Source: Chloroflexota bacterium
Lineage (GTDB): Bacteria > Chloroflexota > UBA11872
NCBI GenBank assembly: GCA_026708035.1
Contig: JAPOVQ010000025.1
Coordinates: 62,001-126,000, forward strand
Direction: 5' to 3'
DNA length: 64,000 nucleotides
Positions 28,001-52,849 of the stretch are shown here, piece by piece (position 1 is the first letter of the stretch; each line of letters begins with the position of its first letter). The notes beneath the pieces are model-generated. The model did not search any database and was not told the origin of the DNA. It was given only the letters and a program-made list of their open reading frames with translations. The translations under genes were made by a program, and so were the position numbers.

Positions 28001-28135
28001 GGGCGACGGTACCCGGTGTGGCCGTGGTGGCCCATTTTATGCAGCTTTGCGGGTGCGCGGAGCCTCCGGCGGCGGCTCGGAGTGAAGCTGTTGGGTGTCC
28101 GGCGCCCAACGCCGGACCAAAGCTGCTGCCTAGCC

Positions 28136-28183
28136 TGGTACCCCCGGTAGGAATCGAACCTACAACCTTCGGATTAAGAGTCC
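28136..28183 (-). pseudogene. tRNA-Lys(CTT) 3' fragment (putative attachment-site copy)
   Basis: 48 bases identical to the 3' part of the complete tRNA-Lys gene at 52572-52619, from encoded CCA through T-arm, variable loop and into the anticodon loop/stem. Identity extends 2 bases beyond the CCA (28134-28135). The D-arm and 5' acceptor strand are missing, so it cannot form a tRNA. Orientation matches the complete gene. This is the classical footprint of integration at a tRNA 3' end. Confidence 0.88.
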
Positions 28184-28298
28184 AGAGTCTCGGGTGCTCG
28201 GGAGCTTTCCCCGGCGGGGACCAACCCCTGCCACACCTGTAATCCGCTGCGCCGAGTGTCGCGCCAGGGCGCCCAGCGGGGCGCAAAGTGGGCCCAGA

Positions 28299-28318
28299 TG
28301 TTGGCAGGACGTTGGCAG
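28299..28318 (+). repeat. Left GTTGGCAG direct-repeat pair (possible integrase arm site)
   Basis: TGTTGGCAG (28299) and CGTTGGCAG (28310), 11 bp apart. A matching pair occurs near the right island end at 52504-52521. Functional assignment is inference. Confidence 0.4.
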
Positions 28319-28636
28319 CCCGGGTCGCGTGGAGCGCGGAGCGTCCGCTGCAAGGCAGTCTGTCCGCTGGCCCCAACGAGGAAGCGGAGGAAACGTCGCG
28401 TCGCTTGGCGACTGGCGGGTGCTGGCTCGCCTGGTCTGGCGGCGGCTCGGCTGCCGGCCGACGCGGAAGGTCTGGCTTGGCAGTTTGCCGCGAGTGGCTG
28501 TGCTTCGTCACGGAGGTTGGTGGAGCGGCCAGCAGGCCGGTTGCGTGAGGCTCAGTGCCTGCGGCCGTTCGTCGCACGACGGGTCCGTCGGTGGCCATAG
28601 CCAGCAACGGCCTGGCCGCCGATTGGCGAGTTTCCC

Positions 28637-29770
28637 TTAGGGCGGCGTTGCTCGGCCGAGCGCGTCGTAGCCCCAGCAGACCACGGCGCCGTCGGTGGTC
28701 ACGCCGCAGGTGTGCCCAATCCCCGCGCTGACGGCGACGAATTCTCCGTCCGGCGGCGTGGCCTGGCCGGCGGCGTACTTGGGTGCTTCTTCGTCGGGAC
28801 CGGCGCGGTCAGGCGCGAGGGAACCACCGCTTCGATCCACCCTGGCGGTGCTGAGGAGATCAACGTTGGAACCCCAACAGGCCACGGAGCCGTCGGCTCT
28901 GACCCCGCAGGTGTGCACCCCACCGGCGCTGACCGAGTCGAACTTCCCCGTGGGCGGTGCGGATTCGCCGAATTCGTTACGTCCCCAGCATGCGACCGTA
29001 CCTTCCGCTCTCACTCCACAGGTATGCGACCCGCCGGCGCTGACGGAGGCGAACTCCCCCGCGGGCGGCGTGGCTTGCCCGTGGTCGTCATTGCCCCAGC
29101 AGACGACCAGACCGTTAGTCGTGATACCGCAGGTGTGCACCCCGCCGGCGCTGACGGAGGCAAACGCTCCGTCGGGCGGCGTGCTCTGGCCAAACTTGTC
29201 ATTGCCGCGGCAGGCGGTGCTGCCATCGGTTCTCACCCCACATGTGTGCGTTCCGCCAGCGCTGACGGCCGCGAATTGCCCCCAGGCCGAAAAATTACGA
29301 TTGCCCCAGCAGACGACGCTCCCGCCGGTCTTGACTCCGCAGGTGTGTGTCCACCCGGCGCTTACGGAGATGAACTTGTCCCTGGGTGGCTTGGATCGGG
29401 CCCAGGGCTCGAATCGGTCGTATCCCCAGCAGACGACGGAACGGTCGGCCTTTACGCCACAGGTGTGCACGCTCCCGGCACTCACGGAATCGAACTTCAC
29501 CCCAGGCCGGCTAGAGCGGGTCGATGACGGCTGGTTCTCGGATGGCGAGGTGTCGTTTTCGGCGGCCACAGCGCGGCGGTCCGCGACGGTCGCAGAGGTA
29601 TCACCGGAGCTGCCGTTGCCACAGGCGGGTAGAGCGCAGGCGATGAAAAGCGTGGTTAGAGCAAGAGTCCAAACCGGCCGGCGCCACCGCCGACGGCTAG
29701 GTGGCCTGTTCACTGACGGCGCCGGCGAACTCAATGAGATGAGCACTAGCGCGGTGCGACGAAGCGTCAC
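28637..29770 (-). CDS. RCC1-repeat lipoprotein (seven propeller repeats)
   Basis: About 377 residues. The N-terminus has a hydrophobic segment with lipobox ('TTLFIACALPACGNG'), so it is exported and probably lipid-anchored. After a Ser/Thr-rich linker come seven repeats of the pattern F-x-S-V-S-A-G-x-x-H-T-C-G-V...V-x-C-W-G...(Q)x-T-P-P, i.e. the RCC1/BLIP-II seven-bladed propeller. Each repeat has two Cys that could form disulfides outside the cell. The sixth repeat carries an insertion of about 25 residues. I choose GTG 29770 because GGAGG lies eight bases upstream; another GTG at 29800 is in frame without such a site. It is divergent from the LRR lipoprotein gene. A binding or adhesion role is inference. 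Confidence 0.85.
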   Translation of the reverse strand: MTLRRTALVLISLSSPAPSVNRPPSRRRWRRPVWTLALTTLFIACALPACGNGSSGDTSATVADRRAVAAENDTSPSENQPSSTRSSRPGVKFDSVSAGSVHTCGVKADRSVVCWGYDRFEPWARSKPPRDKFISVSAGWTHTCGVKTGGSVVCWGNRNFSAWGQFAAVSAGGTHTCGVRTDGSTACRGNDKFGQSTPPDGAFASVSAGGVHTCGITTNGLVVCWGNDDHGQATPPAGEFASVSAGGSHTCGVRAEGTVACWGRNEFGESAPPTGKFDSVSAGGVHTCGVRADGSVACWGSNVDLLSTARVDRSGGSLAPDRAGPDEEAPKYAAGQATPPDGEFVAVSAGIGHTCGVTTDGAVVCWGYDALGRATPP

Positions 29771-30553
29771 TGCGACGGCCTCCTGCCGAAATTTTCGCAC
29801 GTTGATCTGCGCCCGGGTCCGAGATTCTCGTGAAATGTCGATACCATCACGATCTCTCCAGATCGATTAGTCTGCTCCATATCATCTCCGTGCGGATGTG
29901 CGCGGATCTGCGCGCCTTGAGCCAGGTCCGTGGGTGCCCGCGACTTCCAACTAACCACAAGCGGACAGTGGGCGAAGCGGCTTGCGAAACCTATCGGTGC
30001 GGCCGATTCCGGAAAAAGGCTGGCGGCCCGAGTGCCGCCGGCGCCATCCGACGGGCCAGGCAAGACCGCGTCATCCGGCGTTGACGGCGGGCCAGCCCGG
30101 TGACAGTATTCCCGCACATCGATCCATTCGTGAGTGAATCTTCCTATTGAAAGCTGAGGCCTCATTCGCAGGCGAGATGCGCTTCTCCCTGAGGCAGTCG
30201 CGATTCGGGGACCGGAGACGCTGACCGACCATCTGGTTTGGGCCGCACGCCGGAAGAGGTTCCGCGCGCGTGACTACGCCCAACGGGCTGGTGCCGAATG
30301 GTGTTGGCGACCGAATCCTGAGAAAACCGGGCGACCTACCCGAGTTGCGGCCCGCTTCCGATACCAGACATCGGCACCACCGTTCGATTCGGGAATGGAT
30401 TTGCGGGCCGCCCGCCTGAAAACTCCTCAGCTGTCTTATCGCCAGCTCACTGGATTGACGCGCACGGGACTGGGGGAGAGTCGGTGCGAAAGACTTTAGC
30501 CGACTCGGGCTGCCGGATTGCACGTGCATAGCGTCAAGTCGGCGCTGCTTGGC
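29771..30553. other. 783-bp divergent intergenic region (RCC1 / LRR genes)
   Basis: No gene supported. It holds one diverged copy (about 30078-30165) of a repeat that occurs twice more before the giant gene at 34541-34850. It must contain promoters for both flanking genes; none is clear enough to mark. Confidence 0.55.
30078..30165 (+). repeat. Upstream repeat family, copy 1 (partial)
   Basis: The stretch with core 'gtgacagtattcccgcac' and end 'gaaagctgaggc' matches, with substitutions, the 3' part of the unit ending at about 34850 ('gtgacagtatccacgcac', 'ggaagctgaggc'). All copies lie upstream of secreted repeat-protein genes of the island. Confidence 0.6.
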
Positions 30554-33500
30554 ATGGAATCGGCGCCCTGCCGCATGCTGGCATCCGCCCGCCGATGGTC
30601 TATGGGACACGTCGGATGGGTCGCGCTTCCGGGTGTCACCCTGATTCTCGCCATTGCGGGCTGTGATGGCTCCGAGCCGACCGGGGAAGCTCCGCCCGTC
30701 CCCACGACCGCCGCGCACGTGGACACGGCGGCGGTCGTGGCCGTCGGCACGCCGACCCGGACGGTGTCGCCCATACCAACACCCGATACAGCGGCCCCGA
30801 CCGAGTCGCCCACGCCCGGTCCCAACCCTGACCGGAAAGTCCTGGTCGCGCTCTATCACGCGACGGACGGCCCAAATTGGCGCAAGAGCGCCAACTGGCT
30901 CAGCGAGACGCCCTTGGATGAGTGGCACGGCGTCACCACGGACGCCGATGGCCGGGTCACGGACTTGCGGCTCTTCCAGAACTGGCTACGCGGTGAAATC
31001 CCGCCCGAAATAGGACGCCTTACTCGGCTGCGCTGGCTCTCTCTTGTAGACAATGAATTGCGGGGAGCCATACCACCTGAGCTGAGCCGTCTTGCCAGCT
31101 TGGAGTATCTATGGCTCGACCACAACGAGCTCACGGGGGCGCTGCCACCCGAGCTGGGCGAGCTTCCCAAACTGAGAGTGCTGAGTGCACTTGGCAATGG
31201 CCTGACTGGACCGATTCCGCCGGAATTCGGCAGCCTTGCCAATCTGGACGCCCTGGATCTGCGGGGCAACGGGCTGAGTGGGGCGATTCCGCCCGACCTC
31301 GGCAAGCTCGCCCGGCTCTCGGAGCTGAACCTCGGGTATAACCAACTCAGCGGGCCGATCCCGCCCGAGCTCGGCGAACTCGCCCGGCTCGCGGAGCTGG
31401 ATCTCGCGCACAACCAGCTCAGCGGGCCAATCCCGCCGGAACTCGGCCGCCTCGCGAACCTGCAACAGCTGGACCTCTCGGGCAACCGGCTCAGTGGAGA
31501 GATCCCAGGCGAATTGGGCAGCCTCGGAAAGCTGACCTGGCTGTACCTCAACGGCGGCAATCGGTTCACGGGGTGCGTCCTCAAGGAAATCCGGGACATT
31601 CCGGGCGACGCTGCCAAAGTCAATTTGCCAGTGTGCCTGGACAGCATCAGCCCGCGCCCCACTCCGGCAGCGACGCCCACGCTCGCCCCACCACCGGTCG
31701 CCTCGGTGACGTCGGCGCCGGCCCCTGCCCCGGGCGTCGCCGAGGACCGAGAGGCGCTCATCGCGTTCTACCACGCAACCGACGGACCGAACTGGGTCGA
31801 CAACACCAACTGGCTGAGCGATGCGCCGCTCGGCGAATGGCGCGGGGTCACGACCGACTCGGAGGGCCGGGTCACGGAAATAGAGCTCGGGAGTAGTCGC
31901 TTGAGCGGCGAACTTCCCCCCGAGCTCGGCCGTCTTGCCAAGTTGGAACGGCTGACCCTCCCCGGCAACCAGCTGAGCGGAGCGATTCCGCCGGCACTGG
32001 CTCGGCTCTCCAACCTCAAGTCCCTGAGTCTTGCCGTCAACGGGCTCCGTGGGCCGATCCCTCCCTCGCTTCGCCACCTGGTGGCGTTGGAAGTGTTGCT
32101 CCTCGGCGGCAACAGTCTCGTTGGGGAAATTCCACCCGAGCTAAGTCAGCTGTCCAACATGAAGGCTGTGAGCCTGGCGGGCAATCAGCTGATTGGGCCG
32201 ATCCCGCCGTCGTTGGGCCGCCTTGCTGACCTGCGAGTGTTGAAACTCGACGGCAACCGGCTACGCGGAGCGATACCCCCCGAACTGGGCCAACTCTCGA
32301 AATTGCGGGAACTGACCCTTTCGGGAAATCAGCTGGATGGCGCGATCCCTGCCGCGCTGGGTCGCCTCGCCGAGTTGGAAGCGCTGGTGCTGAGCGGCAA
32401 CAACCTGAGCGGGGCTATTCCACCCTTCCTCGGCCAGCTCACCAACCTTGTCGTGCTGAGTCTCGCGTTCAACAATCTCAGTGGGGCAATTCCGCCGGAG
32501 TTGGGCGGCCTCTTCAAGCTGTGGTCGCTGGATCTCCGGAGCAATCGGCTCGACGGATCGATCCCCCAGGAGTTGGATGGCCTGGAAATGCTGTCGAAGC
32601 TGCTTCTTGGCCAAGGCAACAACTTCACGGGCTGCATCCCCGCGGGACTGCGCGATGTATCCCGCAACGACCTCGTCGCGCTCGCCCTGCCATTCTGTAG
32701 CGCCACCGAGGTCTCAGGCATCGAGGCGGCGCGGCCCGCGATCGTCTCCGACCGCGACGTCCTCGTTGCGCTCTTCCACGCAACCGACGGGCCGAACTGG
32801 GTCCGCATCACGAAATGGCTGACCGACGCGCCGCTCGGCGAGTGGCATGGGGTCACGACGGATTCAACCGGTGCGGTCACGGCGCTGCGGCTCAACGACA
32901 ACCAGTTGAAGGGGGAGATCCCCCCGGAGCTCGGCCTTCTCTCCGCGCTCGAGGAGCTGTCGCTCGGCCAGGATCGGCTATATGGAGCGACACCAACCGA
33001 GTCGGTCGGCTTCCATGAGTCGATATCAGGCGGGCCGGGCACGAGCCGACTGAGTGGGCCAATCCCGACCGAGCTGGGCCAGCTGGTCAACCTGCAGCGG
33101 CTGAATCTTTCGGGCAACCAGCTCAGCGGGCCAATCCCGACCGAGCTGGGACAGCTGAACAACCTGCGGGGACTCTACCTCGACGAAAACCAGTTAAGCG
33201 GGGCGATCCCGCCGGAGCTTGGCCTCCTGGTCAACCTGACGACGCTGTCGCTTGGCGCGAATCAGTTCAGTGGCCAGATCCCATCGGAGCTCGGAAACCT
33301 CTCCAAGCTCCGGACTCTGGGCCTATATCGGAACCAGCTTAGTGGGGGAATTCCGTCGGAACTCGGCCGTCTCTCCGCACTCGAGGTGCTTTCGATCAGT
33401 CAAAACCAGTTAGACGGAAAGATGCCATCCGAGTTGGGCGGCCTCACGAACCTGCGAGAGTTGAGACTCTATGAAAACCAGTTGGACGGCGCGATCCCGC

Positions 33501-34216
33501 CGGAGCTGGGTCAGCTGGTCAGCCTGCAGTGGCTTTTCCTGGGCGAGAACCAGCTGAGCGGGACAATCCCGTCGGAGTTTGGCCTCCTTATCAACCTGAC
33601 GACGCTGTCGCTCTCTGGAAACCGGCTCAGCGGCCAGATCCCACCGGAGCTCCGAGGTCTCTCTAATCTCCGACGGCTGGGCCTTTCGTCGAACCAGCTC
33701 AGCGGGGAGATTCCGTCGGAACTCGGCCGTCTCTCCGCACTTGAGGCGCTTTCGCTCAGCGACAACCAACTGGATGGAGAGATTCCATCCGAGCTGGGCG
33801 GCCTCGCCAACCTGGAAATGCTCGAACTCAACACGAATCAACTGAGCGGGCCAATCCCGTCCGAGCTGGGCCAGTTGGTCAACCTGTCGGCGCTTGTCCT
33901 GGGCGCGAACCAACTGACCGGGCCAATCCCGACCGAGTTGGGCCAGTTGGTCAACCTGTCGGCGCTTGTCCTGGGCGCGAACCAGTTGAGCGGGGCGATC
34001 CCGCCCGACTTGGGCGGCCTGAGCCGCCTTCGTTATCTCGATCTCTCGGAGAATCAACTGACTGGGGAGATTCCGACAGCGTTGGGCAACCTGGACCTAA
34101 CGAATCTGCGCCTCGGCGGCAACGACCAGCTGACCGGTTGCATCCCCGGTGGGCTTCGGGATGTCTTTTTCATCGACTTTGCCGAACTCGGACTGCCGTT
34201 CTGCGCGGATAGCTGA
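30554..34216 (+). CDS. Three-module secreted leucine-rich-repeat lipoprotein
   Basis: About 1,220 residues. Signal with lipobox 'VTLILAIAGC', then a Thr/Pro-rich linker. Three LRR modules follow, each opened by the same cap ('LYHATDGPNW', 'FYHATDGPNW', 'LFHATDGPNW', then 'EWHGVTTD' or similar) and closed by a two-Cys cap ('RFTGCV...LPVC', 'NFTGCIP...LPFC', 'QLTGCIP...LPFC'). Repeats are plant-type 24-mers (L-x-x-N-x-L-S-G-x-I-P-P-E-L-G). Module 3 has an irregular insert near 'SVGFHESISGGPG', a 360-bp super-repeat and a 72-bp exact-like tandem unit, so it evolves by internal duplication. Start uncertain: ATG 30554 is used; TTG 30518, ATG 30575 and ATG 30602 are in frame, none with a strong ribosome-binding site. 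Surface binding role inferred. Confidence 0.88.
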   Translation: MESAPCRMLASARRWSMGHVGWVALPGVTLILAIAGCDGSEPTGEAPPVPTTAAHVDTAAVVAVGTPTRTVSPIPTPDTAAPTESPTPGPNPDRKVLVALYHATDGPNWRKSANWLSETPLDEWHGVTTDADGRVTDLRLFQNWLRGEIPPEIGRLTRLRWLSLVDNELRGAIPPELSRLASLEYLWLDHNELTGALPPELGELPKLRVLSALGNGLTGPIPPEFGSLANLDALDLRGNGLSGAIPPDLGKLARLSELNLGYNQLSGPIPPELGELARLAELDLAHNQLSGPIPPELGRLANLQQLDLSGNRLSGEIPGELGSLGKLTWLYLNGGNRFTGCVLKEIRDIPGDAAKVNLPVCLDSISPRPTPAATPTLAPPPVASVTSAPAPAPGVAEDREALIAFYHATDGPNWVDNTNWLSDAPLGEWRGVTTDSEGRVTEIELGSSRLSGELPPELGRLAKLERLTLPGNQLSGAIPPALARLSNLKSLSLAVNGLRGPIPPSLRHLVALEVLLLGGNSLVGEIPPELSQLSNMKAVSLAGNQLIGPIPPSLGRLADLRVLKLDGNRLRGAIPPELGQLSKLRELTLSGNQLDGAIPAALGRLAELEALVLSGNNLSGAIPPFLGQLTNLVVLSLAFNNLSGAIPPELGGLFKLWSLDLRSNRLDGSIPQELDGLEMLSKLLLGQGNNFTGCIPAGLRDVSRNDLVALALPFCSATEVSGIEAARPAIVSDRDVLVALFHATDGPNWVRITKWLTDAPLGEWHGVTTDSTGAVTALRLNDNQLKGEIPPELGLLSALEELSLGQDRLYGATPTESVGFHESISGGPGTSRLSGPIPTELGQLVNLQRLNLSGNQLSGPIPTELGQLNNLRGLYLDENQLSGAIPPELGLLVNLTTLSLGANQFSGQIPSELGNLSKLRTLGLYRNQLSGGIPSELGRLSALEVLSISQNQLDGKMPSELGGLTNLRELRLYENQLDGAIPPELGQLVSLQWLFLGENQLSGTIPSEFGLLINLTTLSLSGNRLSGQIPPELRGLSNLRRLGLSSNQLSGEIPSELGRLSALEALSLSDNQLDGEIPSELGGLANLEMLELNTNQLSGPIPSELGQLVNLSALVLGANQLTGPIPTELGQLVNLSALVLGANQLSGAIPPDLGGLSRLRYLDLSENQLTGEIPTALGNLDLTNLRLGGNDQLTGCIPGGLRDVFFIDFAELGLPFCADS
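33870..34013 (+). repeat. 72-bp tandem LRR unit duplication
   Basis: Units 33870-33941 and 33942-34013 are nearly identical DNA (one LRR each), far closer than neighbouring LRRs, so the duplication is recent. Confidence 0.75.
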
Positions 34217-35035
34217 GGCCGGGGACATCCCGCGTCGGCCGGGTTTTCATGCCGCGTGTCGCGCGGCCCGGCAATGCCGGTCGAGTTGGTCGGGGGCCAC
34301 GCGTCGCGACCGCACGCCGCGCCCAATGAAGCTGGTCTGCTGGAACCTGGCCCACCCTCGAAAGTCATGGAAACCGCTGGTCCAGATGGACGAAGGGACC
34401 GCGGTGGCGGCGAAATGGCAAAGGTCGGACCGGATGCTGCCGGAGCCATCCCGCGGCCCGGTTAAGCCCGCGTCGTCCGGCGGAACCGCCCTGTTGCGCG
34501 ATCGGTCGACTCGCAAGCTCGCGGTGTTGCCGAACCGAGCCTAGTAGCGTCGCGGCGGGCGCAACCAAGGCCAGACCGCAGGGAGGACCGCCAACGAGAG
34601 CTGAGCCGCGGCGGCCGACGCTGACAGCGAGCCGGTAACGTGAAAATATCCCCGTACCTCAATCACTTCATGAATAATCCTTCGTAACAGAACTAGTGAC
34701 GTCGCGGCAGGTGCAACTAAATTCAGACCTGGAGGGAGGACTGACAACGAGAACCGAGCCGGGATCGTCGACGTTGACAGCAGGCGAGCAGAGTGACAGT
34801 ATCCACGCACTTCGGTCGATTTATGAATAATTCTTCGTAACGGAAGCTGAGGCGGGATCCGTGAGTGGGCTGCACCGATTGAGTTCACGAAAGGCGAGGC
34901 CAAGGTCCGAATCCAGACCTGAACGGGCTGGGGCCGGCTCAATTTGACGGCGCCTGGTTTCACGGACTGTCGATCCGCGTCGATATTCCCGAGGGCGTTC
35001 GCGCCATCGGAAATCCCGCGATCTGACGCCGGCTG
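34217..35035. other. 819-bp intergenic region with tandem repeats before the giant gene
   Basis: No supported gene. It contains two tandem diverged units (34541-34692 and 34693-34850). A further weaker match to sequence near 30040 lies at about 34436-34485 ('gccatcccgcggcccgg' against 'gccatccgacgggccagg'). The promoter for the giant gene must lie here or within the repeats. Confidence 0.55.
34541..34850 (+). repeat. Two tandem ~152-bp units of the upstream repeat family
   Basis: Unit 1 starts at 34541 (ctagtagcgtcgcggc) and unit 2 at 34693 (ctagtgacgtcgcggc). Both run through 'gggaggac', 'caacgaga', 'gacagc', an AT-rich 'tatgaataatTcttcgtaac'-type block, and end near 'gaagct'. They are diverged (about three-quarters identical by eye). 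Function unknown; a regulatory or structured-RNA element is possible. Confidence 0.65.
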
Positions 35036-38000
35036 ATGGCGTCCCCGGCGGCAATGATCACCGAGCTGCGGCGCCAGCCGCGATGGCTGCGGGTGGCCAG
35101 TGCCGTGCTGACGGTGCTGTTCCTGCTGACCTTTGCCGTCACGAGCTATGGACCACTGGTGATGGCGCAGGAGGGCGGCGAAGAGGCGGGAGTCCGGCCT
35201 CGCGACGATGCGCCGTCCGGGTGTTACCGGGAGCCGGACGCGGGAAACATCATCGTCTGTCCGTCGGTGGACATCAGAGTCTCAGATTCCGCGATCGACA
35301 TTGGCGGCTCCACCACCCTCAGCTGGAGCAGCACCTGGACGACCAGACGCTCCATCAACCAGGGAATCGGGAGCGTTGATCCCAACGACAGCCGCACCAT
35401 CCGCCCCACCAGCAATACGCAATACACGATCACGGCCTATAGCCCGGCCGGTTCGCACACGGACAGCGTCTCGGTCACGGTCCGACAGCTTCCACCGGCC
35501 CCATCGGGATTCAGCGCGGAGGCGATCAGCGATAGCCAAATCAAGCTGACATGGAGCGACGTGCGCAGCGTTGAGGTCTACCACGTGAAGGGCCGAAGCA
35601 GCAGCATCACCAGCACTGAGCTAACGGTGGGAGGGCTTGCATGCAACACCAAGTACGACTTCAAAGTGCGGGCGCACGGGGACGGGTCGACCTGGGCGAA
35701 TAAGTGGGGCCCATATGCCGAAACATCGGGGACGACCGCGGCCTGCCCTACCCCGACCCCAACGCCAGCGCCGACCGCAACGCCAACCGCAACGCCAACA
35801 GAACCGCCAACCGGAGGCCCGACTCTCGACAAGCCGCCCGCACCGTCCGGATTCAGCGCAAGCGCCGGAGGCAGGACCAGCATCAATCTGAATTGGAGCT
35901 CTCGGAGCGGCATCAGTAGATATGAGGTAGAGCACCGCAAGAGCGACATCTCGGGTTCAAGCACCAGCTATAGGGTGTCGGGCCTGACATGCAACACGTC
36001 GTACAGCTTCAAGCTGCGGGCGCGCGGCGACGGATCGACGTACGCGCCTAGTTGGAGCGCGTGGGCCTCCGCCTCGGCGACCACCAACGCGTGCGACTCG
36101 CAGTTGGCGGGGAGCATCGCGATTACCTCCGGTAAGCCAACGCACCTGACGCCCCCAAATCCGGACTGCACCAACATTACCTGGACCACTACCGATGCCG
36201 AGTCAGCAAGCGTTGATTCCAAGATCAAGACAACGTCGAGTGCGGTTACAAGCACCAATATCAGCACGAGTCTCAATGGGACTGACGAAGAAGTCTGTCC
36301 TGAGCGAACCACCACGTACACGCTCACCGCATCCAAGGGGAGTCAAACAATCACTGCCCAAGTGGATGTAACTGTATCTAATGGACATGTCGAGGTGAAC
36401 CCATCGGAGATCTATGTTGGTAACCGTGCGATCGTAAGCTGGTGGACCAGTGCCCTCAACAACCCGTCCATTGGCCTCGATACAGGAGACCCTAACATCG
36501 GCGCTATCGAGGTTGTCGGGAGCCGGCGAGTCTGTCCCACCGCCACAACCAAGTACACCCTCACGGGTAGCAGCCAAGTCGCTGCTAGTAGCAGCCAGGC
36601 TGGCGGTAGCAGCCAGGCTCGATCGACAGCTGCGGGCAACGCGGCAGCTGCTTCGACGACCAGCGTTTCAAAGAGTGCCACGCTGACGGTTCATGCATCG
36701 TGTTCAGACAAGCCAGGCGACCTGTGCGAGGTTCAAGCACTAACGGTCTCGCTCGGCAACGGCGATCCTGGATCGGCCGATGGTCCGGATACGTTGGTGG
36801 CAAAATGGACTGGGCCCGCATTGCCGCTCGGAGGCGGAAAAGGATACTTTGTTCAGTACAAACGCAAAGGCCAAACGTTCCAATCAAGTGGCCATCCGTC
36901 CGGTTCCGGCACCTTATCTTGGCCAATCGCTACCACCAGTACAGCACAGCAAGCGCCGCTGAGGGAATTCAGAATTCCTGAGTCGCAGCTAACCGGCGGA
37001 ACTGAATATCTCATTCGAGTCGCGACTTGCCAAACTCACGCGAATCCACTCAATTGTGGCCCGTGGCGGACGACTAGCACCATAATAGCTGCCGAGTGCG
37101 ATACGCATAATTTTGTAGTTGACAAAGATCGTCTAAAGCCAGACGGTGCCACCGTGATTGAAGACGAGCTTTGGAGTAAAATCGAAGAATATTTGTCATT
37201 GCTTGGCATTCTCGACGACGTATTTGGACGCACGGCTGGGCCACCGGACCCTTGGCATGTAACATCCATCACTCATTTCTGTTTCAATGGCACAAATATA
37301 GTCGGCGACGTGGCATTCGAGATTCCGGCTGATTCTGGAGGCCACAGGATACTCAAAGGTAAAAGCGGGTCGTGGACAGACTACATCTATAAGATCGGCT
37401 CGCGTGAAATTGTCTCGTCAATCGCGTCTGAAAACCCGAAACTGCACAAAGATAGTCTTACGTTCCACTATAGATTTGCGACTTCTGCATTTTCGATTTC
37501 TTGTGCTGAAGGCCCTGGGAATTTCACGGAAGATTTTGAATTTGGTGGTACTCCCGAGGGATGCAACTGGTCGTTAGTAAATACCGATGACAGTAATCGT
37601 GTGGGGGTGATCGAAAAATATCAACAAGGGTCCGGGAAAAAGTGTGGGCGCGTGTCCATGCTACCTCCTCACTTTGTGGTAGGTGCGGATGAATCTACAT
37701 GGTATTGCGATCGCAGCAATTCGGAATCTGCTAGTGCGACGGCGGATGCATCGCAAAACAGCCGGGTGCCAATCGATCACGTGGATGAATCTGAGTCGCG
37801 AAATCCCAGGGCGGCTCGGTCCGCCCAGGGCGTTGTCGCTCAACGGGCGGAGGAACAGAGGGTGAGAGAGCGGCTCAAATCCTTGGGCGAAGAGCTCAAT
37901 CTGGGTGCGCGGCAGAGGCTGACATGGGTATCGTCTGGCGGAGGCTTTGATATCTATCGAAGTGGCCGTGATTGGTCATTTGTGAAAATTGGAGACTGCC

Positions 38001-43393: not shown

Positions 43394-46300
43394 CGGGCGC
43401 CCACTTCACGGGCGGATTGGTGGGCGAGCACTTCCGGGGCGCGATCCAAGCCAGCTATGCGACGGGCACGGTTACGGGCACAAACAACGTTGGGGGCCTG
43501 GTGGGTCGGATCGCGCGAACGGTCGACACCAGCTACGCGACGGGGGCGGTGACGGGCGACAGTACCTATGGAGGGCTGACCGGGGCGCACACGAGCGCGG
43601 TGACGGCGAGCTACTGGGACACGGCGACGAGCGGCCAGAGCCGGAGCGGCGGGGGCGTGGGTAAGACGACGAGCGAGTTGCAGACGCCCACGGGGTACAC
43701 GGGCATCTACGCGGACTGGAACGTGGACCTCGACGGGGTGACGGGCGGCGAGGACCCGTGGCAGTTCGGCAGCAGCAGCCAGTACCCGGTGCTGCAAGTC
43801 GACTTCGACGGCGACGGGACGGCCACCTGGACCGAGTTTGGCGATCAGCGGCCCTTGCCAGGCGCACCGGTGAGTTTCAGCGGCACCGCTGGAAACACAC
43901 GGGCAGTGCTCGCTTGGATGCCACCACCCGCGTACACGATCGATCAGTACCCGATCAGCAAATACCAATATCGGCAGAACGGTGGGACGTGGACGGACAT
44001 TCCAAATAGCGCGGCGGGTGGGGCCAATTCCACGTCATTCGCCGTCACCGGCCTGGCCAACGGCACGTCGTATAGCTTTGCCATCCGCGCGATCAACGCA
44101 AATGGAACCGGCGCCGCGTCGGCGACCGTTTCGGTGACTCCCGCGACGGGGGACTACGACGCCGACAACGACGGGTTGATCGAGGTGAGAAGCCTGGCCC
44201 AGCTACATGCGATTCGCTGGGACCTTGACGGAGACGGCACATCCACTGATTCCGGCTACGCCGCGGCGTTCCTCGACGCCTCGACCGGAATGGGCTGTCC
44301 CACCACCGGCTGCACGGGGTATGAGTTGACGGCGGACCTGGACTTCGACACCAACGGCAATGGTGTGGCGGACGCGGGGGACGCGTACTGGAACGGCGGC
44401 GCGGGGTGGGAGCCCATCGGCACGCACGCCCGAAAGTTCACCGCGACCTTCGAGGGCAACGGGCACGAAATCGCCAACCTCTTCATCGATCGGCCGACGA
44501 CCGACGATATTGGCCTGTTTGGAGTCACCAGCGCGTCTGGCGTCGTCCGACACGTGGGACTGCGCGGCGTGGACGTGCGCGGCCGCTACGACGTCGGCGG
44601 GCTGGTCGGCGACAACGATGGGACCATCGCCGCCAGCTATGCCGGCGGCACGGTGCGCGGCAGCCTTGACGCCATCGGCGGGCTGGTGGGGCGCAACGAC
44701 GGCACCGTGACTACCAGCTACGCCAGTGGCGCGGTGACGGGCCGCTACTCGGTCGGCGGGCTGGCGGGGGGCAACTACCGCCAAATCACGGCGAGCTATG
44801 CCACCGGCGCGGTGTCGTCGCACCTGGCCGCCGGCGAGCGCCTGGGAAGCCTGGTGGGCCACAACTACGCCAATGGCCGCATCACCGCCAGCTACGGGCG
44901 GGGCCCCGTGACGGGGTCCCGCGACAGCATTGGTGGACTGGTCGGCAAGCATGACAGCGGCGCCCGCGTGACGGCGAGCTACTGGGACACGGCGACGAGC
45001 GGACAGAGCGCGAGCCGTGGCGGCACCGGCAAGACCACCGCCGAGTTGCAGACGCCGACGGGCTACACCGACATCTACGCCGATTGGAACGTGGACGTGG
45101 ATGGGGAGACGGGTGGGGACGATCCCTGGCACTTCGGGACCGGCAGCCAATATCCGGTGCTCAAGGTCGATTTCAACGGCGATGGGACGGCCACGTGGGA
45201 AGAGTTTGGCGACCAGCGCCCGGCGCCGCCCGCGTCGCAGATGGACTACGACGCGGACAACGACGGATTGATCGAGGTGGCGAACCTGGCGCAGTTGCAC
45301 GCGATGCGGTGGGACCTGGACGGGAACGGGTTCGCGACGGAGGCGGGATATGCGGCGGCGTTCCCGAACGCGCCGTCGGGGATGGGGTGCCGGACGGGCT
45401 GCACGGGCTACGAGTTGATGGGGAACCTAGATTTTGACACCAACGGCAACGGCGTGGCGGACGCGGGGGACGCGTACTGGAACGGCGGCGCGGGCTGGGA
45501 ACCGATTGGCACACAGTCGCGGCCGTTCACCGCGACGTTCGAGGGCAACGGGCACACCCTGGCCAACCTGTTCATCGCACGTGGCGCTACGAACGATGTG
45601 GGGCTCTTCGGCCGCGTCGGCTCAGACGGCGTCGTCCGCAATGTCGGTCTGCACGGTGTGGAGGTGCGGGGACAGCACGAAGTCGGCGGGCTGGTGGGGG
45701 ACAACGACGGTGCGGTGACGGCGAGCTACGCGAGCGGGACGGTGCGGGGAACCGGCGACGCCATCGGCGGCTTGGTGGGGCGCAACAACGGCCACATCCG
45801 GGCGAGCTATGCGAGCGGCGCAGTGGCCGGCGACGACTTCATCGGCGGGCTGGTGGGGCGCAATCACCGCCAAATCACGGCGAGCTACGCGACCGGCGCG
45901 GTGACGGGAGGCGTGGACGGCACCAGTGCGGAGCACCTGGGGGGCCTCGTAGGCCGCAACTACTCGAGCGGCCGCATCAGCGCCAGCTACGCCCGGGGCC
46001 CGGTGGCCGAGACCCGCGGCAGCATCGGCGGACTGGTGGGGAGCCACGAGAGGGGCGCCCGCGAAACGGCCAGCTATTGGGACACGGCGACGAGCGGACA
46101 GACGCGGAGCGCCCAGGGCGTGGGCAAGACGACGGCCGAGTTGCAGACGCCGACGGGGTACGCCGACGTCTACGCGGACTGGAACGTGGACCTGGACGGC
46201 GAGACCGGCGGGGACGACCCCTGGCACTTCGGGACGAACGCCCAGTACCCGGTGCTGCGGGTGGACTTCAACGGCGACGGGACGGCGAGTTGGGAAGAGT

Positions 46301-47337
46301 TTGGGGACCAGCGCCCGGCGCCGCCCGCGTCGCAGGTGGACTACGACGTGGACAACGACGGGCTGATCGAAGTGGCGAACCTGGCGCAGTTGCACGCGAT
46401 CCGCTGGGACCTGGACGGGAACGGGTTCGCGCCGGAGGCGGGGTATGCGGCGGCGTTCCCGAATGCGCCGTCGGGGATGGGGTGCCGGACGGGCTGCACG
46501 GGGTACGAGTTGACGGGCGACCTGGACGTTGACACGAACGGGAACGGCGTGGCGGATGCGGGTGACGCGTACTGGAACAACGGCGCGGGGTGGGAGCCGA
46601 TCGGCGCGGGCTCCCGGCAATTCACCGCAATCTTCGAGGGCAACGGGCACGTGATCGCCAACCTGTTCATCGCGCGCGGCGAGACCGAGGACGTTGGGCT
46701 CTTTGGCCGCACCGGCACGGGCGGCGTGATTCGCAACGTCGGGCTGCGCGGCGCGAATGTCACCGGCTGGAACGACACCGGGGGGCTGGTCGGCGAAAAC
46801 AACTCGGGGACGATCCAGGCCAGTTACGTGAGCGGCACGGTGACGGGCAATGACTACATCGGCGGGCTGGTGGGGCGCAATCACGGCCAGATCCGGGCGA
46901 GCTATGCCAGCGGCGCGGTGGAAGGGGACGACCGTGTGGGTGGACTGGCGGGGTACAGCAGCGGGGCGAGCACGATTACGGCGAGCTATGCCAGCAGCAG
47001 CGTGACGGGGGTCAGGTCTGAAAGCTACGAAAGTCACGGTGGTCTGGTCGGCCGCAACGACGGGCGGATCACGGCCAGCTACGCGTGGGGCCGGGTGACG
47101 GAGATGCACGGCACGGCGGGCGGGCTGGTGGGGAGCAAGCACAGCAACGCCCGGGTGACGGCGAGCTACTGGGACACGGCGACGAGCGGGCAGACGCGGA
47201 GCAGCGGAGGTGTGGGCAAGACGACCGCCGAGCTCCAAACGCCGACGGGCTACACCGGCATCTACGCCGACTGGAACGTGGATATCGACGGCGCCACGGG
47301 CAACGACGATCCGTGGCACTTCGGCACCACCAGCTAA
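43240..47337 (+). CDS. Giant repeat protein, part 2 (rest of GLUG module 4 to module 7)
   Basis: Begins in frame as '[18 protein letters not shown]', the natural continuation of module 4. An FnIII domain (about 43870-44150, '[17 protein letters not shown]') lies between modules 4 and 5. Modules 5, 6 and 7 open at 44152, 45244 and 46339 with '[12 protein letters not shown]' or '[12 protein letters not shown]'. A start codon of its own is not convincing: any upstream ATG lies in the wrong-frame shadow of part 1. It ends at TAA 47335, in place of the Gln codon seen in sister modules. Unless restarted, this part is probably not translated alone. Confidence 0.7.
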
Positions 47338-50300
47338 TATCCGGTGCTCAAGGTGGATGTCGACGGGGACGGAACCGCCACCTGGCGGGAGTTGGGCCAG
47401 CAGTACCCGAACGTCCCGCCGGCGTTCGCGGAAGGCGAGACGGCCACGCGCTCGGTGGACGAGAACACGGCGACGGGGCAGGACATCGGCGCGCCGGTGA
47501 CGGCCACGGACGCCGACGAAGGCGACGTGGTGACCTACGCGCTGGGCGGGACGGATGCGGCCAGCTTCGATCTCGACACGGCCACGGGGCAACTGCGGAC
47601 GAGCGCGGCGTTGGACTACGAGACACAGGCCGACTACGAGGTAACCATCACCGCCAGCGACGACCACGGCGACGGCTCGAGCATCACGGTCACGATCACC
47701 GTGGGCGATCTGGTGGACTCGCCGCCCGCGCCGGCGAACCTGGCGGCGGGGACGGTGACGGCGAGCACCGTGCCGTTGAGCTGGGATGCGGTGACCGGCG
47801 CGGCGAAGTATCGGGTCGAGTACCGCGTGAAAGACGCCGAGACCTGGACGACGGACGACGAGACCCTGACGACCGCGACCCATACCGTGGATGAGCTCTA
47901 CTGCGGGACGGCCTACGAGTTCCGGGTCAGCACCTACGGCGACGGCACGACCCATACCGCGGAATGGAGCGCGCCGTCGGGGACGGTCGCAGCGGCGACG
48001 AGCGCCTGCCCGGCGCCGGTGTTCGGGGACGAGACCTACGCCTTCAGTCTGGCGGAGGACGCCGCCACGGACGCCGACGTGGGGACGATCACCGCCACCA
48101 TCACGGGCGGCCCGCCGGTGACCTACGCCATCACGGCGGGCAACACGGCTGGCGCCTTCGCGATCGACGCGGCCAGCGGCGAGCTTACGGTGGCCAAGGC
48201 GCTGGACTACGAGACCACGGCGAGCTACGCGCTGACGGTGACGGCCAGCTACGGGGCCAGCACGGCGACGGCCGCGGTCGCCATCACCGTCACCAACGTC
48301 GTGGAGCCTCCGGTGTTCGGCGCGGCGAGCTACGCCTTCACCGTGGCCGAGGACGCGGGGATCAGCACGACGATCGGGACCGTGGCGGCCACCGACCCCG
48401 AGGGCGGGACGGTGATCTACTACGACATTACGGCGGGGGACGACGACAGCCTGTTTGCGGTGGACGTGCTGGCGGGGCGCCTCGTAGTGGCCGTCCCGCT
48501 GGACTACGAGAGCACGGCGAGCCACACGCTGACGGTGCGGGCCAGTACGCCTGATGATGCCGAGACGACCGTGACGGTCACTGTCACGGTGACGGACGTC
48601 GCCGAGCCACCGGTCTTCGGGGCGGAGAGCTATGCCTTCAGCGTGGCGGGAGACGCGGCGTTGGAGGCCGACGTGGGGACAGTGACGGCCACCGTTCGCG
48701 CCAATGGGGCGGTGAGCTACTCAATCTCGGCAGGCGACGAGAACGGCGCGTTCACCATCGATGACGCGACGGGAGAGCTGACGGTGGCGGCGGCGCTGGA
48801 CTATGCAACCACGGCGAGCTATGCGCTGACGGTGACGGCGAGCCATGGGGTGAGCACGACCACGGTGCCGGTCGCTATCACGATCACGGCACCGACGCCG
48901 GTCTTCGACGAGGCCAGCTATGCCTTTGGCGTGGCCGACGACGCGGTCGTCGGGACCGCGGTGGGCACGGTCGCGGCCTCCGTTGTCGGCAGTTCGGCGA
49001 TCGCGCACACCATAACGGCGGGCAATACCGGTGACGCCTTCGCCATCGCCCAAGCCAGCGGCCAGCTCACGGTGGCCGCCGCGCTCGACGCGGACACGGT
49101 GTCAACCTACACGCTCACCGTGCAGGCGAGCGTCGGCAGCGGCGACGACGTGAAGACCGCCACGACCACCGTCACGCTGACCGTGCAGGGGGCACCGCCC
49201 GCGCCGGCGAACCTCACGGCAGGCACGCTCACTCAAACCAGTGTCCCGCTGAGCTGGGACGCGGTGACCGGAGCGGCGAAATATCGCGTCGAGTACCGCG
49301 CGACGGCTACGGAATCGGAGGAGTCGGAGACTGGGGAGTCTGGGACTGAGGAGTCGGACGAGGAGGAGACGGTCAGCTGGATCACCGACGACGAGACGCT
49401 CACGGGCACCACCCACACGGTGGACGAGCTGACCTGCGGCACGGCCTACGAGTTCCGGGTCACCGCGTTCGGGGATCAGGTGGTGCACACGGCGGCGTGG
49501 GGCACGCCGGCGACCGCGGTGTCGGCGACGACGGCCATCTGCCCGCCCCCGGCCCCCGACAATCTGGCCGCGGGCACGGTTGGGAAAACCAGCATCCCGC
49601 TCACGTGGGACGCCGTGACCGGCGCCGCCAAGTACCGTCTGGAGTATCGCGTCAGCGACACCGATACCTGGTCGAGCGCCAGCGATGCGATCACCGCGGC
49701 GGCGTACACGGTGGACGACCTCACCTGCGGCACGTCGTATGAAGTCCAAGTGAGCGCCTTCGGCGACGGCGTTTCGCTTGTCGCCGAATGGGGTGCGGCC
49801 TCAACGGTTGTCACGGCTGCAACGGCCTTGTGCGCGCCCCCGGCCCCGACAAACGTCGCCGCGGGCACGGTTGGGAAAACCAGCATCCCGCTCACGTGGG
49901 ACGCCGTGACCGGCGCCGCGAAGTACCGCGTCGAGTACCGCGTCAGCGGCGCCGACACCTGGACGACCGCCAGCGACTCGATCACCGGGGAGGCGTACAC
50001 GGTGGAGGAACTCACTTGTGGCACGTCGTACGCGGTTCAAGTGAGTGCCTTTGGGGACGGCGCCTCGCTTGCGGCCGAATGGGGCGCGGCCTCCGCGGCT
50101 CTCACGGCGGCGACGGCTTTGTGCGCGCCCCCGGCCCCGACCAAACTGGCCGCGGGCACGGTTGGGAAAACCAGCATCCCGCTCACGTGGGACGCCGTGA
50201 CCGGCGCCGCGAAGTACCGCGTCGAGTACCGCGTCAGCGACACCGAGACCTGGACGACCGCCAGCGACGCGATCACCGCTGCGGCATACACGGTGGAGGA

Positions 50301-52239
50301 ACTCACCTGCGGCACGGCCTATGAGTTCCGTGTGAGCATCTACGGCGACGGCTCCACCTTGGCCGCCGCGTGGGGGGCGGCTTCCACCGCCCTCGCCGCC
50401 AGCACCGGCGCCTGCGACCCCTGCGACCCGCTGGCCGTCGTCGACGCCACGCTGACGAAGGTCACCGGGACAACGGAGGTCAAATTCAATTGGGCCTATG
50501 GCAACGGATGCACCGAGTTCGAGGCGGCGCGGTATCACGTTGGCTACGCCGTAGAGTACGCCGATGGCACCAAGTCCACCGGTGAGTATCAGTCCATCAC
50601 GGCTCCGCCCCTCACCTTCCGGCCGAAAATGACGCATGAGACCTCCGGGTCGCCGCTGGTGCGCTTCCGGTGGACCGATTTGGACTTTGTGCTCGAGGAG
50701 GGTGACGACCCGTCCGAGAACCTGACCTTCAGCTTCGATCCGGCGCCCAGCTTGGTCTACAACTGGCCGCCGGCGTTCGGGAAGGCCAGCTACGCGTTCA
50801 CGCTGGCGGAAGACGCGGCGGTTGCCGCGGCGGTCGGCAGTGTGAGCGCCTCCGACCCCAACGACGGCGACACCGTGACCTATGCGATCACCGCAGGCAA
50901 CACCGGCGACGCATTTGCGATCAACGCTGCGAACGGCGCGATCACGGTGGCGGGCGCGCTGGACTACGAGACCACGTCGACCTATTCCCTCACCGTCCAG
51001 GCGAGCGACTCGGAGAGCGCCGCCACAACCGTGACGGTCACCGTCACCGTGACGGACGTGGCCGAGCCGCCGGTGTTTGGCGCGGCCAGCTATGCCTTCT
51101 CCGTGGCCGAGGACGCGGCCGAGGCCGCCGCGGTGGGGACGGTCGGCGCGACGGTGCGCGCCAACGGCGCGGTGGCCTACGCGATCACGGCGGGCAACGA
51201 CGCCGGCGGCTTTGCCATTGACACCAGCTCGGGCGCCATCACGGTGGCCGGCGCGCTGGACTACGAGGGCACGACGAGCTACGCGCTGACGGTGACGGCC
51301 AGTCACGGGGTGAGCACATCGACGGTCGCGGTGGCCATCACGGTGACGGACGTGGCCGAGCCGCCGGACTTCGGGGAGTCCAGCTACGCCTTCAGCGTTG
51401 CGGAAGACGCGGCGGAGGACGCTGCCGTGGGGACGATCGGCGCGACGGTGCGCGCCAATGGCGCGGTGAGCTACGCGATCACGGCGGGCAACGATGCCGG
51501 CGCCTTTGCCATCGATGCTAGCTCGGGCGCCATCACGGTGGACGGCGCGCTGGACTACGAGACCACCACGAGCTACGCGCTGACGGTGACGGCCAGTCAC
51601 GGGGTGAGCACGTCGACGGTCTCGGTTGCGATCACGGTGACGGACGTGGCCGAGCCGCCGGTGTTCGGCGCGGCGAGCTATGCCTTCTCAGTGGCCGAGG
51701 ACGCGGCGGAGGACGCCGCCGTGGGGACGGTCGGTGCGACGGTGCGCGCCAATGGCGCGGTGAGCTACGCGATCACGGCGGGCAACGATGCCGGCGCCTT
51801 TGCCATCGATGCTAGCTCGGGCGCCATCACGGTGGACGGCGCGCTGGACTACGAGACCACCACGAGCTACGCGCTGACGGTGACGGCCAGTCACGGGGTG
51901 AGCACGTCGACGGTCGCGGTGGCCATCACGGTCACGGACGTCGTGGACACCCGTCCGGCGAAGCCGACGAATCTGACGGCGACGGTGAATACCGCCGGCT
52001 CGATCACCTTGAGCTGGGACGATCCCGGTGACGAATCGATCACCGGCTACCAGATCCTGCGGAGGCGGCCCAGCGAGGGTGAAAAGACGTTGCTGGTCTA
52101 CGTGAAAAACACGGGCAGCAGCAGCACCACGTACACCGACACGAGCGTGACCGATGGCGTGCGCCATGTCTACCGGATCAAGGCGATCAACGCCGTCGGC
52201 CTGAGCGAAATCTCCCACTTCGTGCGCGTCGACCCCTAG
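47338..52239 (+). CDS. Giant repeat protein, part 3 (cadherin/FnIII array)
   Basis: Same frame as part 2, separated only by TAA. About 1,633 codons; a GTG at 47344 could serve as start but has no ribosome-binding site. Order: end of GLUG module 7 with a calcium-like '[10 protein letters not shown]', cadherin-like ('VTYALGGTDAASFDLD'), FnIII, four cadherin-like repeats (48010-49190), four FnIII (49197-50417, the first with an acidic insert at 49311-49375), an unknown 340-bp part, four cadherin-like repeats (50770-51945), final FnIII. Cadherin repeats read F-x-x-x-S-Y-A-F-S-V-A-E-D-A. No C-terminal anchor is seen. The last domains are highly homogenised DNA repeats. Confidence 0.75.
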   Translation, partial: YPVLKVDVDGDGTATWRELGQQYPNVPPAFAEGETATRSVDENTATGQDIGAPVTATDADEGDVVTYALGGTDAASFDLDTATGQLRTSAALDYETQADYEVTITASDDHGDGSSITVTITVGDLVDSPPAPANLAAGTVTASTVPLSWDAVTGAAKYRVEYRVKDAETWTTDDETLTTATHTVDELYCGTAYEFRVSTYGDGTTHTAEWSAPSGTVAAATSACPAPVFGDETYAFSLAEDAATDADVGTITATITGGPPVTYAITAGNTAGAFAIDAASGELTVAKALDYETTASYALTVTASYGASTATAAVAITVTNVVEPPVFGAASYAFTVAEDAGISTTIGTVAATDPEGGTVIYYDITAGDDDSLFAVDVLAGRLVVAVPLDYESTASHTLTVRASTPDDAETTVTVTVTVTDVAEPPVFGAESYAFSVAGDAALEADVGTVTATVRANGAVSYSISAGDENGAFTIDDATGELTVAAALDYATTASYALTVTASHGVSTTTVPVAITITAPTPVFDEASYAFGVADDAVVGTAVGTVAASVVGSSAIAHTITAGNTGDAFAIAQASGQLTVAAALDADTVSTYTLTVQASVGSGDDVKTATTTVTLTVQGAPPAPANLTAGTLTQTSVPLSWDAVTGAAKYRVEYRATATESEESETGESGTEESDEEETVSWITDDETLTGTTHTVDELTCGTAYEFRVTAFGDQVVHTAAWGTPATAVSATTAICPPPAPDNLAAGTVGKTSIPLTWDAVTGAAKYRLEYRVSDTDTWSSASDAITAAAYTVDDLTCGTSYEVQVSAFGDGVSLVAEWGAASTVVTAATALCAPPAPTNVAAGTVGKTSIPLTWDAVTGAAKYRVEYRVSGADTWTTASDSITGEAYTVEELTCGTSYAVQVSAFGDGASLAAEWGAASAALTAATALCAPPAPTKLAAGTVGKTSIPLTWDAVTGAAKYRVEYRVSDTETWTTASDAITAAAYTVEELTCGTAYEFRVSIYGDGSTLAAAWGAASTALAASTGACDPCDPLAVVDATLTKVTGTTEVKFNWAYGNGCTEFEAARYHVGYAVEYADGTKSTGEYQSITAPPLTFRPKMTHETSGSPLVRFRWTDLDFVLEEGDDPSENLTFSFDPAPSLVYNWPPAFGKASYAFTLAEDAAVAAAVGSVSASDPNDGDTVTYAITAGNTGDAFAINAANGAITVAGALDYETTSTYSLTVQASDSESAATTVTVTVTVTDVAEPPVFGAASYAFSVAEDAAEAAAVGTVGATVRANGAVAYAITAGNDAGGFAIDTSSGAITVAGALDYEGTTSYALTVTASHGVSTSTVAVAITVTDVAEPPDFGESSYAFSVAEDAAEDAAVGTIGATVRANGAVSYAITAGNDAGAFAIDASSGAITVDGALDYETTTSYALTVTASHGVSTSTVSVAITVTDVAEPPVFGAASYAFSVAEDAAEDAAVGTVGATVRANGAVSYAITAGNDAGAFAIDASSGAITVDGALDYETTTSYALTVTASHGVSTSTVAVAITVTDVVDTRPAKPTNLTATVNTAGSITLSWDDPGDESITGYQILRRRPSEGEKTLLVYVKNTGSSSTTYTDTSVTDGVRHVYRIKAINAVGLSEISHFVRVDP
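49551..50420 (+). repeat. Three 291-bp FnIII tandem repeats
   Basis: The segment 'ttgggaaaac' recurs at 49580, 49871 and 50162, exactly 291 bp (97 codons) apart, within long near-identical stretches. Recent duplication or gene conversion. Confidence 0.85.
51064..51945 (+). repeat. Three 294-bp cadherin-like tandem repeats
   Basis: 'gagccgccgg' recurs at 51064, 51358 and 51652, 294 bp (98 codons) apart. The last two units are almost identical over about 180 bp. Confidence 0.85.
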
Positions 52240-52571
52240 GAGCGCCGAATCCACAGCTTCACCGCAATGACCAGAGTGGCTCGCACATGCGATTCCCAAG
52301 GCCAGTCGGACGAGGCTGGGGTGTGGCCCACCGGCACGTGGAGCAGACGCAACAGTTGATTTCACATGTGACATCGCCGCCTCATCGGCCGAGTCGGAGG
52401 GTGCCCACATCGAACATCGGCACCTGGCAGAGCCTTAGACGTTGGTGGCGGCTGTGGAGATGTTGCCGCGACGGCTCCGGCCGGGCCGAACGGCCGACAG
52501 AAACGTTGGCAGACGTTGGCAAAACGCCAAAAGACGAGCGTTTCGGGGCGGCGAAAACCGGCTCCCAAACC
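52240..52571. other. 332-bp intergenic stretch at right island boundary
   Basis: No gene. It contains the right GTTGGCAG repeat pair (52504-52521) and an adjoining ttggc/gccaa inverted pair (52516-52530), then the tRNA-Lys 3' end. Confidence 0.6.
52504..52521 (+). repeat. Right GTTGGCAG direct-repeat pair (possible integrase arm site)
   Basis: CGTTGGCAG (52504) and CGTTGGCA (52514), 10 bp apart, same orientation as the left pair at 28299-28318. About 50 bp from the tRNA 3' end. Function is inference. Confidence 0.4.
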
Positions 52572-52647
52572 TGGTACCCCCGGTAGGAATCGAACCTACA
52601 ACCTTCGGATTAAGAGTCCGCTGCTCTGCCAATTGAGCTACGGAGGC
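52572..52647 (-). tRNA. tRNA-Lys (anticodon CTT)
   Basis: Read on the minus strand: acceptor GCCTCCG pairs with CGGGGGT (first pair G-T), D-arm GCTC/GAGC, anticodon loop CTCTTAA giving CTT, T-arm gtagg-ttcgaat-cctac, discriminator A and encoded CCA. Length 76. The 27-43 pair is mismatched. Its 3' 48 bases are duplicated at 28136-28183, making it the likely integration target of the island to its left. It is divergent from the small ORF/membrane protein genes at 52727. Confidence 0.95.
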
Positions 52648-52726: not shown

Positions 52727-52849
52727 ATGAGCAGCGACGCCCCGCAAGAGCCCCTGGATCTGAAACGTGAAGGACGACGCTGGCGGCTCGCATCCACGCC
52801 GACCCCTCAAGTGTCCACGATGACCGCCCGCGCCGCCCCGCCCGAATGA
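52727..52849 (+). CDS. Possible small ORF (40 residues) overlapping the next gene
   Basis: ATG 52727 to TGA 52847-52849, reading 'MSSDAPQEPLDLKREGRRWR' and on to a Pro/Ala-rich end. The stop overlaps the start of the following membrane-protein gene as ATGA, the same coupling seen in several gene pairs here, which is the main support. The ribosome-binding site is weak and no family is recognised. It could equally be leader sequence of the downstream gene. Confidence 0.35.
   Translation: MSSDAPQEPLDLKREGRRWRLASTPTPQVSTMTARAAPPE

Follow-up and report, generated by a model that had tools for sequence, protein, structure and literature searches.

Integration at tRNA-Lys(CTT) is already known from Streptococcus agalactiae, where the occupants of this gene include integrative and conjugative elements (ICEs), integrative and mobilizable elements (IMEs) and cis-mobilizable elements (CIMEs) (PMC5704250). 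CIMEs are defined by the loss of integration and transfer genes and the retention of both attachment sites, attL and attR (PMC5704250). Islands at RNA genes are also known in Chloroflexota, in the form of the ssrA-specific genomic islands of Dehalococcoides (PMC3146451). In sponge symbionts, sequence similarity has been taken as evidence for lateral transfer of cadherin, fn3 and leucine-rich-repeat (LRR) genes, and mobile elements were suspected to be the carriers (PMC8163846). Here we analyzed a 64-kb window (G000:C25:62001-126000) of a Chloroflexota draft genome (3.46 Mb, 36 contigs, ~96% completeness). Positions 28134-52619 of this window are very probably a site-specifically integrated genomic island, placed at tRNA-Lys(CTT) by a tyrosine integrase, most likely of the type that we designate P0006, and now a CIME-like remnant. 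The observations that carry this reading are the duplication of part of the tRNA, empty sites in relatives, paired repeats at the block ends, a related integrase-bearing element at the same site, and the absence of recombination genes from the block.

The anatomy of the block is best described as that of a CIME-like remnant, in that it appears to keep attL and attR (cores plus putative arm-type repeat pairs at both ends) and has no integration or transfer genes. Like the CIMEs of S. agalactiae, it occupies tRNA-Lys(CTT) and has autonomous relatives at the same gene. However, it comes from a Chloroflexota genome and carries unrelated RCC1, LRR and cadherin cargo, and its mobilization is putative. 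The Dehalococcoides islands belong to the same phylum and share site-specificity for an RNA gene and strain-variable cargo, but they target the tmRNA gene, carry reductive dehalogenases and use another integration module. The sponge-symbiont cases involve the same cargo classes and inferred transfer; the vehicle is only suggested there, whereas attachment sites could be delineated at the locus described here, together with empty sites in relatives and a related integrase.

The tRNA-Lys(CTT) site and its occupants

ARAGORN detected a single tRNA in the window, an intact tRNA-Lys(CTT) on the minus strand at 52572-52647 (Rfam 69.2 bits), which represents the target gene as restored by insertion. 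Its 3' part is duplicated at the other end of the block. The left attachment site core (28134-28183, minus strand) and the right core, which lies within the intact tRNA gene (52570-52619, minus strand), are identical at 50/50 bases and have the same orientation. The duplicated copy comprises tRNA positions 29-76 plus 2 bp past the encoded CCA. The 50-bp core was found only at the two block ends, and no internal attachment-site remnant was found in the block. A search of the whole genome with the fragment returned one further match, of 85% identity to an intact tRNA-Lys(TTT); with no other copy beyond this weak match, the duplicated part is not a dispersed tRNA repeat. Rfam also reports a match at 28139-28205 (32.3 bits, cut-off 29), where the fragment and neighboring island DNA together score as a full-length tRNA. 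We rejected a second tRNA at this position, as the score derives mainly from the genuine 3' half and ARAGORN makes no call.

The site was compared in five genomes of the same genus (G001 to G005). In all five, the tRNA-Lys is bordered by the two genes that flank it in the window, both outside the island. On the left is a PhyH-family gene (27077-28000, minus strand; Pfam PF05721), syntenic in 5/5 congeners at 91-94% DNA identity, and on the right is a single-copy gene for a small membrane protein (52846-53478, plus strand), likewise syntenic and 75-92% identical. Three of the five congeners have an empty site with one tRNA-Lys and a gap between phyH and the membrane protein gene of 942 bp (G001), 923 bp (G002) or 937 bp (G004). 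In silico excision of the block leaves one complete tRNA-Lys, and the resulting phyH-tRNA product aligns to the empty sites at 87-89%. The remaining two congeners are filled, each with an insert different from the window block. G003 contains a 43.4-kb element bounded by the same exact 50-bp duplication as in the window, and G005 contains a 7.4-kb insert that encodes a histidine kinase and an LRR protein and whose left tRNA fragment has 8 mismatches in 50 positions. Between the tRNA-Lys and the membrane protein gene of the window, 52728-52840 is a short remnant of a ~208-aa gene that the empty-site genomes have in this interval.

These results bear on the initial annotation, which had proposed site-specific integration at a tRNA from a complete tRNA-Lys(CTT) and an exact 50-bp copy of its 3' part in the same orientation. 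Both features are confirmed by ARAGORN and by the 50/50 identity, and the proposed integration gains support from the duplication, the empty sites and the related occupants. It had also suggested aligning relatives from phyH to the membrane protein gene. This comparison yields three genomes without an insert and two with different inserts, rather than the same block in place in all relatives, and the genome-wide search did not return the many dispersed tRNA fragments against which the annotation had cautioned.

Attachment-site architecture and related integrases

By comparing element ends, we recognized a paired repeat, AYGTTGGC-N2/3-AYGTTGGC. Judged by their placement, these repeats are probably the arm-type binding sites of a tyrosine integrase. 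The window contains only two pairs. The left pair, ATGTTGGCAGGACGTTGGC (28298-28316, plus strand), starts 115 bp inside the left core, and in the right pair, ACGTTGGCAGACGTTGGC (52503-52520, plus strand), the starts of the two repeats are offset inward from the right core by 67 and 57 bp. The offsets in the G003 element are nearly the same (117 bp on the left and 58-79 bp on the right). The left inner attachment-site DNA (28184-28297) aligns with the left ends of seven other family elements or modules, and the right pair aligns with the right ends of the elements in G003, G005:C7, G007:C48 and G011:C48. No arm pair occurred in 300 simulated 64-kb windows. Across 19 genomes the pattern was found 15 times, in 6 genomes, and the reversed control pattern was found 0 times; 12 of the 15 pairs are at tRNA-Lys element ends and 3 are in related left-end modules. 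In the 7.4-kb insert of G005, the left end has degenerate arm repeats and the right end lacks them, in keeping with an older, decaying insertion.

The crossover region can be placed in the anticodon stem-loop (28166-28183), because homology to a relative's left end begins there, with the shared bases TCGGATTAAGAGTCC at 28169-28183. Specifically, window positions 28166-28318 are 95% identical to positions 7645-7797 of contig G004:C59, and G005:C2 and G000:C10 carry related DNA. Outside the core, all three contigs have a homologue of P0007, an excisionase-like gene, in place of the tRNA. In G004 and G005 this homologue is followed by ~70 bp that can be aligned with the beginning of int. The fusions of a left attachment half-site to the excisionase-like gene are at L127:7111-7800 (G004:C59), L125 (G005:C2) and L123 (G000:C10), and G004 and G005 share a 662-bp unit of half-site, excisionase-like gene and truncated int within different flanks.

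Target use in a sister genus, g2, points to the same position. Its tRNA-Lys(CTT) has the anticodon stem TGACTCTTAATCAG, versus GGACTCTTAATCCG in the genus of the window. A tRNA fragment or arm pair was found at 0 of 11 g2 tRNA-Lys(CTT) loci (each covering ~10-20 kb beyond the tRNA), and g2 elements are at tRNA-Lys(TTT). The stem change together with the absent insertions independently supports the proposed crossover site, as a correlation across two genera and not as causal proof. The initial annotation had put the crossover near the anticodon loop, in agreement with both the G004:C59 junction and the g2 target use.

We identified no integrase, excisionase or transfer genes in the block, using Pfam as well as tblastn with P0006 and P0007 over the window. 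A hidden or degenerate integrase was sought by the same methods and rejected, and the window's contig has no gene of the Phage_integrase family. The autonomous gene set of an ICE (integrase, replication and transfer) is thus absent from the block. The G003 element, on the other hand, encodes P0006, an intact 366-aa tyrosine integrase (Phage_integrase E=2.5e-24, SAM-like N-terminal domain). Upstream of it, with only a few bases between the two, lies P0007, an HTH_17 excisionase-like gene, and a Replic_Relax protein and a HerA/TraG-like ATPase are also encoded. The adjacent xis-int pair, Replic_Relax, the ATPase and the tRNA target resemble those of actinomycete ICEs (AICEs) of the pSAM2 type (PMC3218068), as does the occurrence of distant P0006 relatives, 34% identical, on Streptomyces plasmids. 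Unlike in AICEs, int is ~14 kb from the nearer end of the G003 element, and an FtsK/SpoIIIE Tra was not identified in the element; all of these genes are missing from the window block. The initial annotation had called the island cargo-only or decayed for want of an integrase. That view stands, and a relative with a like attachment-site architecture now indicates the class of integrase.

Homologues of P0006, 85-86% identical, occur in G005, G007 and G011. In G005:C7 the integrase is in an element at tRNA-Lys(TTT) with the same arms. In G011, whose element has the same arms, contig C9 carries a left end of the tRNA-Lys(TTT) type together with the integrase; the element's right end lies at tRNA-Lys(TTT) on another contig. 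The G007 integrase and both element ends, which have the same arms, are on separate contigs. None of the viral contigs searched encodes P0006.

The G003 element also carries defense genes. In the region G003:C48:29500-79000 these are an Hma-like set (HmaA, HmaB and HmaC), a capP-like peptidase and a CBASS-like E1-E2/JAB gene; a patatin-like gene lies close by. A second type of integrase adjoins tRNA-Thr(GGT) in two genomes (L127:4882-6063 in G004:C59, and G000:C11:19711), and an almost exact 3' fragment of this tRNA is found in G000:C10.

Cargo genes

The block encodes an RCC1-repeat protein with a lipoprotein-like N terminus (28637-29800, minus strand; Pfam RCC1_2 E=3.5e-48), an LRR protein with a lipoprotein-like signal, LAIAGC (30518-34216, plus strand; Pfam LRR_1 E=8e-106), and a giant gene with fn3, LRR, cadherin and GLUG repeats (35036-52239, plus strand). 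Relatives of the LRR protein, at 38-55% identity, are in the G005 and G011 elements. Pfam matches, translations and inspection of the junctions indicate that the giant gene is a single frame, broken by a frameshift at about 43232-43237 and again by a TAA stop in frame at 47335-47337, although an assembly error is possible. The several giant cadherin/GLUG proteins of the initial annotation therefore reduce to one gene. A prophage was considered and rejected, as Pfam gives only RCC1, LRR, fn3, cadherin and GLUG, and no viral contig has P0006 or the unique segment of the giant gene.

A homologue of the giant gene in G004:C45 is 87% identical over 7 kb to window positions 44675-51647 and has an open frame of 3665 aa. 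Homology to this cargo ends at 52319, 250 bp short of the core. G004:C45 lies at a second chromosomal site, with a right flank in common with G005:C2 (94% over 4.3 kb), and the tRNA-Lys site of G004 is empty; the related giant gene and left ends are thus found at two sites in sister species. Judging from the contig ends, G004 contigs C59 and C45 probably form one island. Significant GLUG matches in the genus were limited to the window and G004. In the source genome itself, G000:C10 contains a degraded second set, whose cadherin end is 94-98% identical to that of the window.

The initial annotation had considered the content of the block to be unlike both flanks and unusual for an island. The first claim does not hold in full: an LRR gene is also present in the flank at 60069-61928, and genes of the RCC1 type abound in both the genome and the family, so this class of cargo is not foreign to the family. 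The second is tempered, because these genomes commonly encode such eukaryotic-like proteins and the related elements again contain LRR genes. Base composition was discarded as evidence of foreignness, since the GC content of the block equals that of its flanks.

One part of the giant gene, at 36713-38363, has a low GC content (about 0.54) and no significant Pfam match, and nothing in 60 relatives matches its first ~400 aa. Very long open frames run antisense to the giant gene, at 38984-43123 (minus strand, 1379 aa) and 45622-48525 (minus strand, 967 aa). Both can probably be attributed to high GC content and repeats.

Origin of the island and its significance

We propose that a tyrosine integrase, most likely of the P0006 kind, inserted a circular element into tRNA-Lys(CTT) by recombination between the anticodon stem-loop of the gene and a matching core on the circle. 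Integrase subunits would have bound this core as well as the paired AYGTTGGC arm sites that flank it. A replacement 3' half would have come in with the element, which kept the tRNA whole, and the original 3' half would have been left beside phyH. The block appears to be immobile at present, and may be movable only with a related integrase, provided in trans or carried in cis by a newly arriving relative. Its cargo consists of large, animal-like repeat proteins, secreted or at the surface, with the giant gene already broken.

Several observations weigh against this explanation. Own-genome integrases were rejected as the cognate enzyme, since the best P0006 match is only 37% identical and adjoins tRNA-Gly, and the actual integrase was not identified in the same genome; given the draft state of the assembly, it could have been missed elsewhere in the genome. 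No excision or circular form of the block was observed. GC contents are 0.663, 0.662 and 0.668 for the left flank, block and right flank, respectively. Finally, the modules with which the left end groups have a truncated integrase of their own, so the enzyme that acted may have been a different, though related, integrase.

The block could instead be a satellite that never had int and was mobilized in trans by a P0006-type element, a possibility to which we give clearly less weight than to the explanation above. Although an int-bearing relative occupies the same site, the block has no integrase or excisionase remnant, as a satellite would predict, and its intact arm sites and perfect 50-bp copy suggest recent insertion rather than long decay. 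However, the related left-end modules of three genomes lie beside an excisionase-like gene, in G004 and G005 with an int stub, and so document the decay of int-bearing elements; the giant gene itself is also broken. In our reading, int may have been lost after insertion. Of the same weight as the satellite, and likewise still in contention, is a composite origin, by which two elements inserted in tandem at tRNA-Lys and the middle was then deleted along with the integrase, leaving ends from different elements. There are precedents for such accretion at tRNA-Lys in other bacteria (PMC5704250). In type, the left inner end matches G004:C59, G005:C2 and G000:C10, while the right end aligns with int-bearing elements, and the homology to the G004 cargo stops before the core is reached, but the core and the arm pairs are confined to the block ends, with no attachment-site remnant between them. 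It is very improbable that the tRNA fragment arose by chance or non-mobile duplication and that the block is ancestral chromosome lost by the other species. The cargo families are widespread in the family and GC equals that of the flanks, yet there are three clean empty sites and three different occupants, both ends of the block have arm sites, and an element that bears int has an identical footprint. Site-specific integration, presumably by a P0006-type integrase, accounts best for the block.

As far as the literature consulted shows, the element family, its attachment-site architecture and its cargo of host-type repeat proteins are new. The isolate name, COS3, and the cargo suggest a link of the source genome to sponges, for which there is no direct literature match for the host. 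For adhesion-type and eukaryotic-like genes, the carrier is here resolved base by base, including the target, core, putative arm-type sites, related integrase, empty sites and alternative occupants, so its mobility can be tested in metagenomes by a single PCR or long-read query. The two genera also offer a natural test of target choice, because the anticodon-stem change in one tRNA accompanies absent insertions. We tentatively suggest, as a possibility and not as the expected outcome, that the tRNA-Lys element family is a dedicated shuttle of host-facing repeat proteins (LRR, RCC1 and cadherin/fn3/GLUG) between sites and species. If so, surface and adhesion repertoires would be exchanged among these bacteria as site-specific cassettes.

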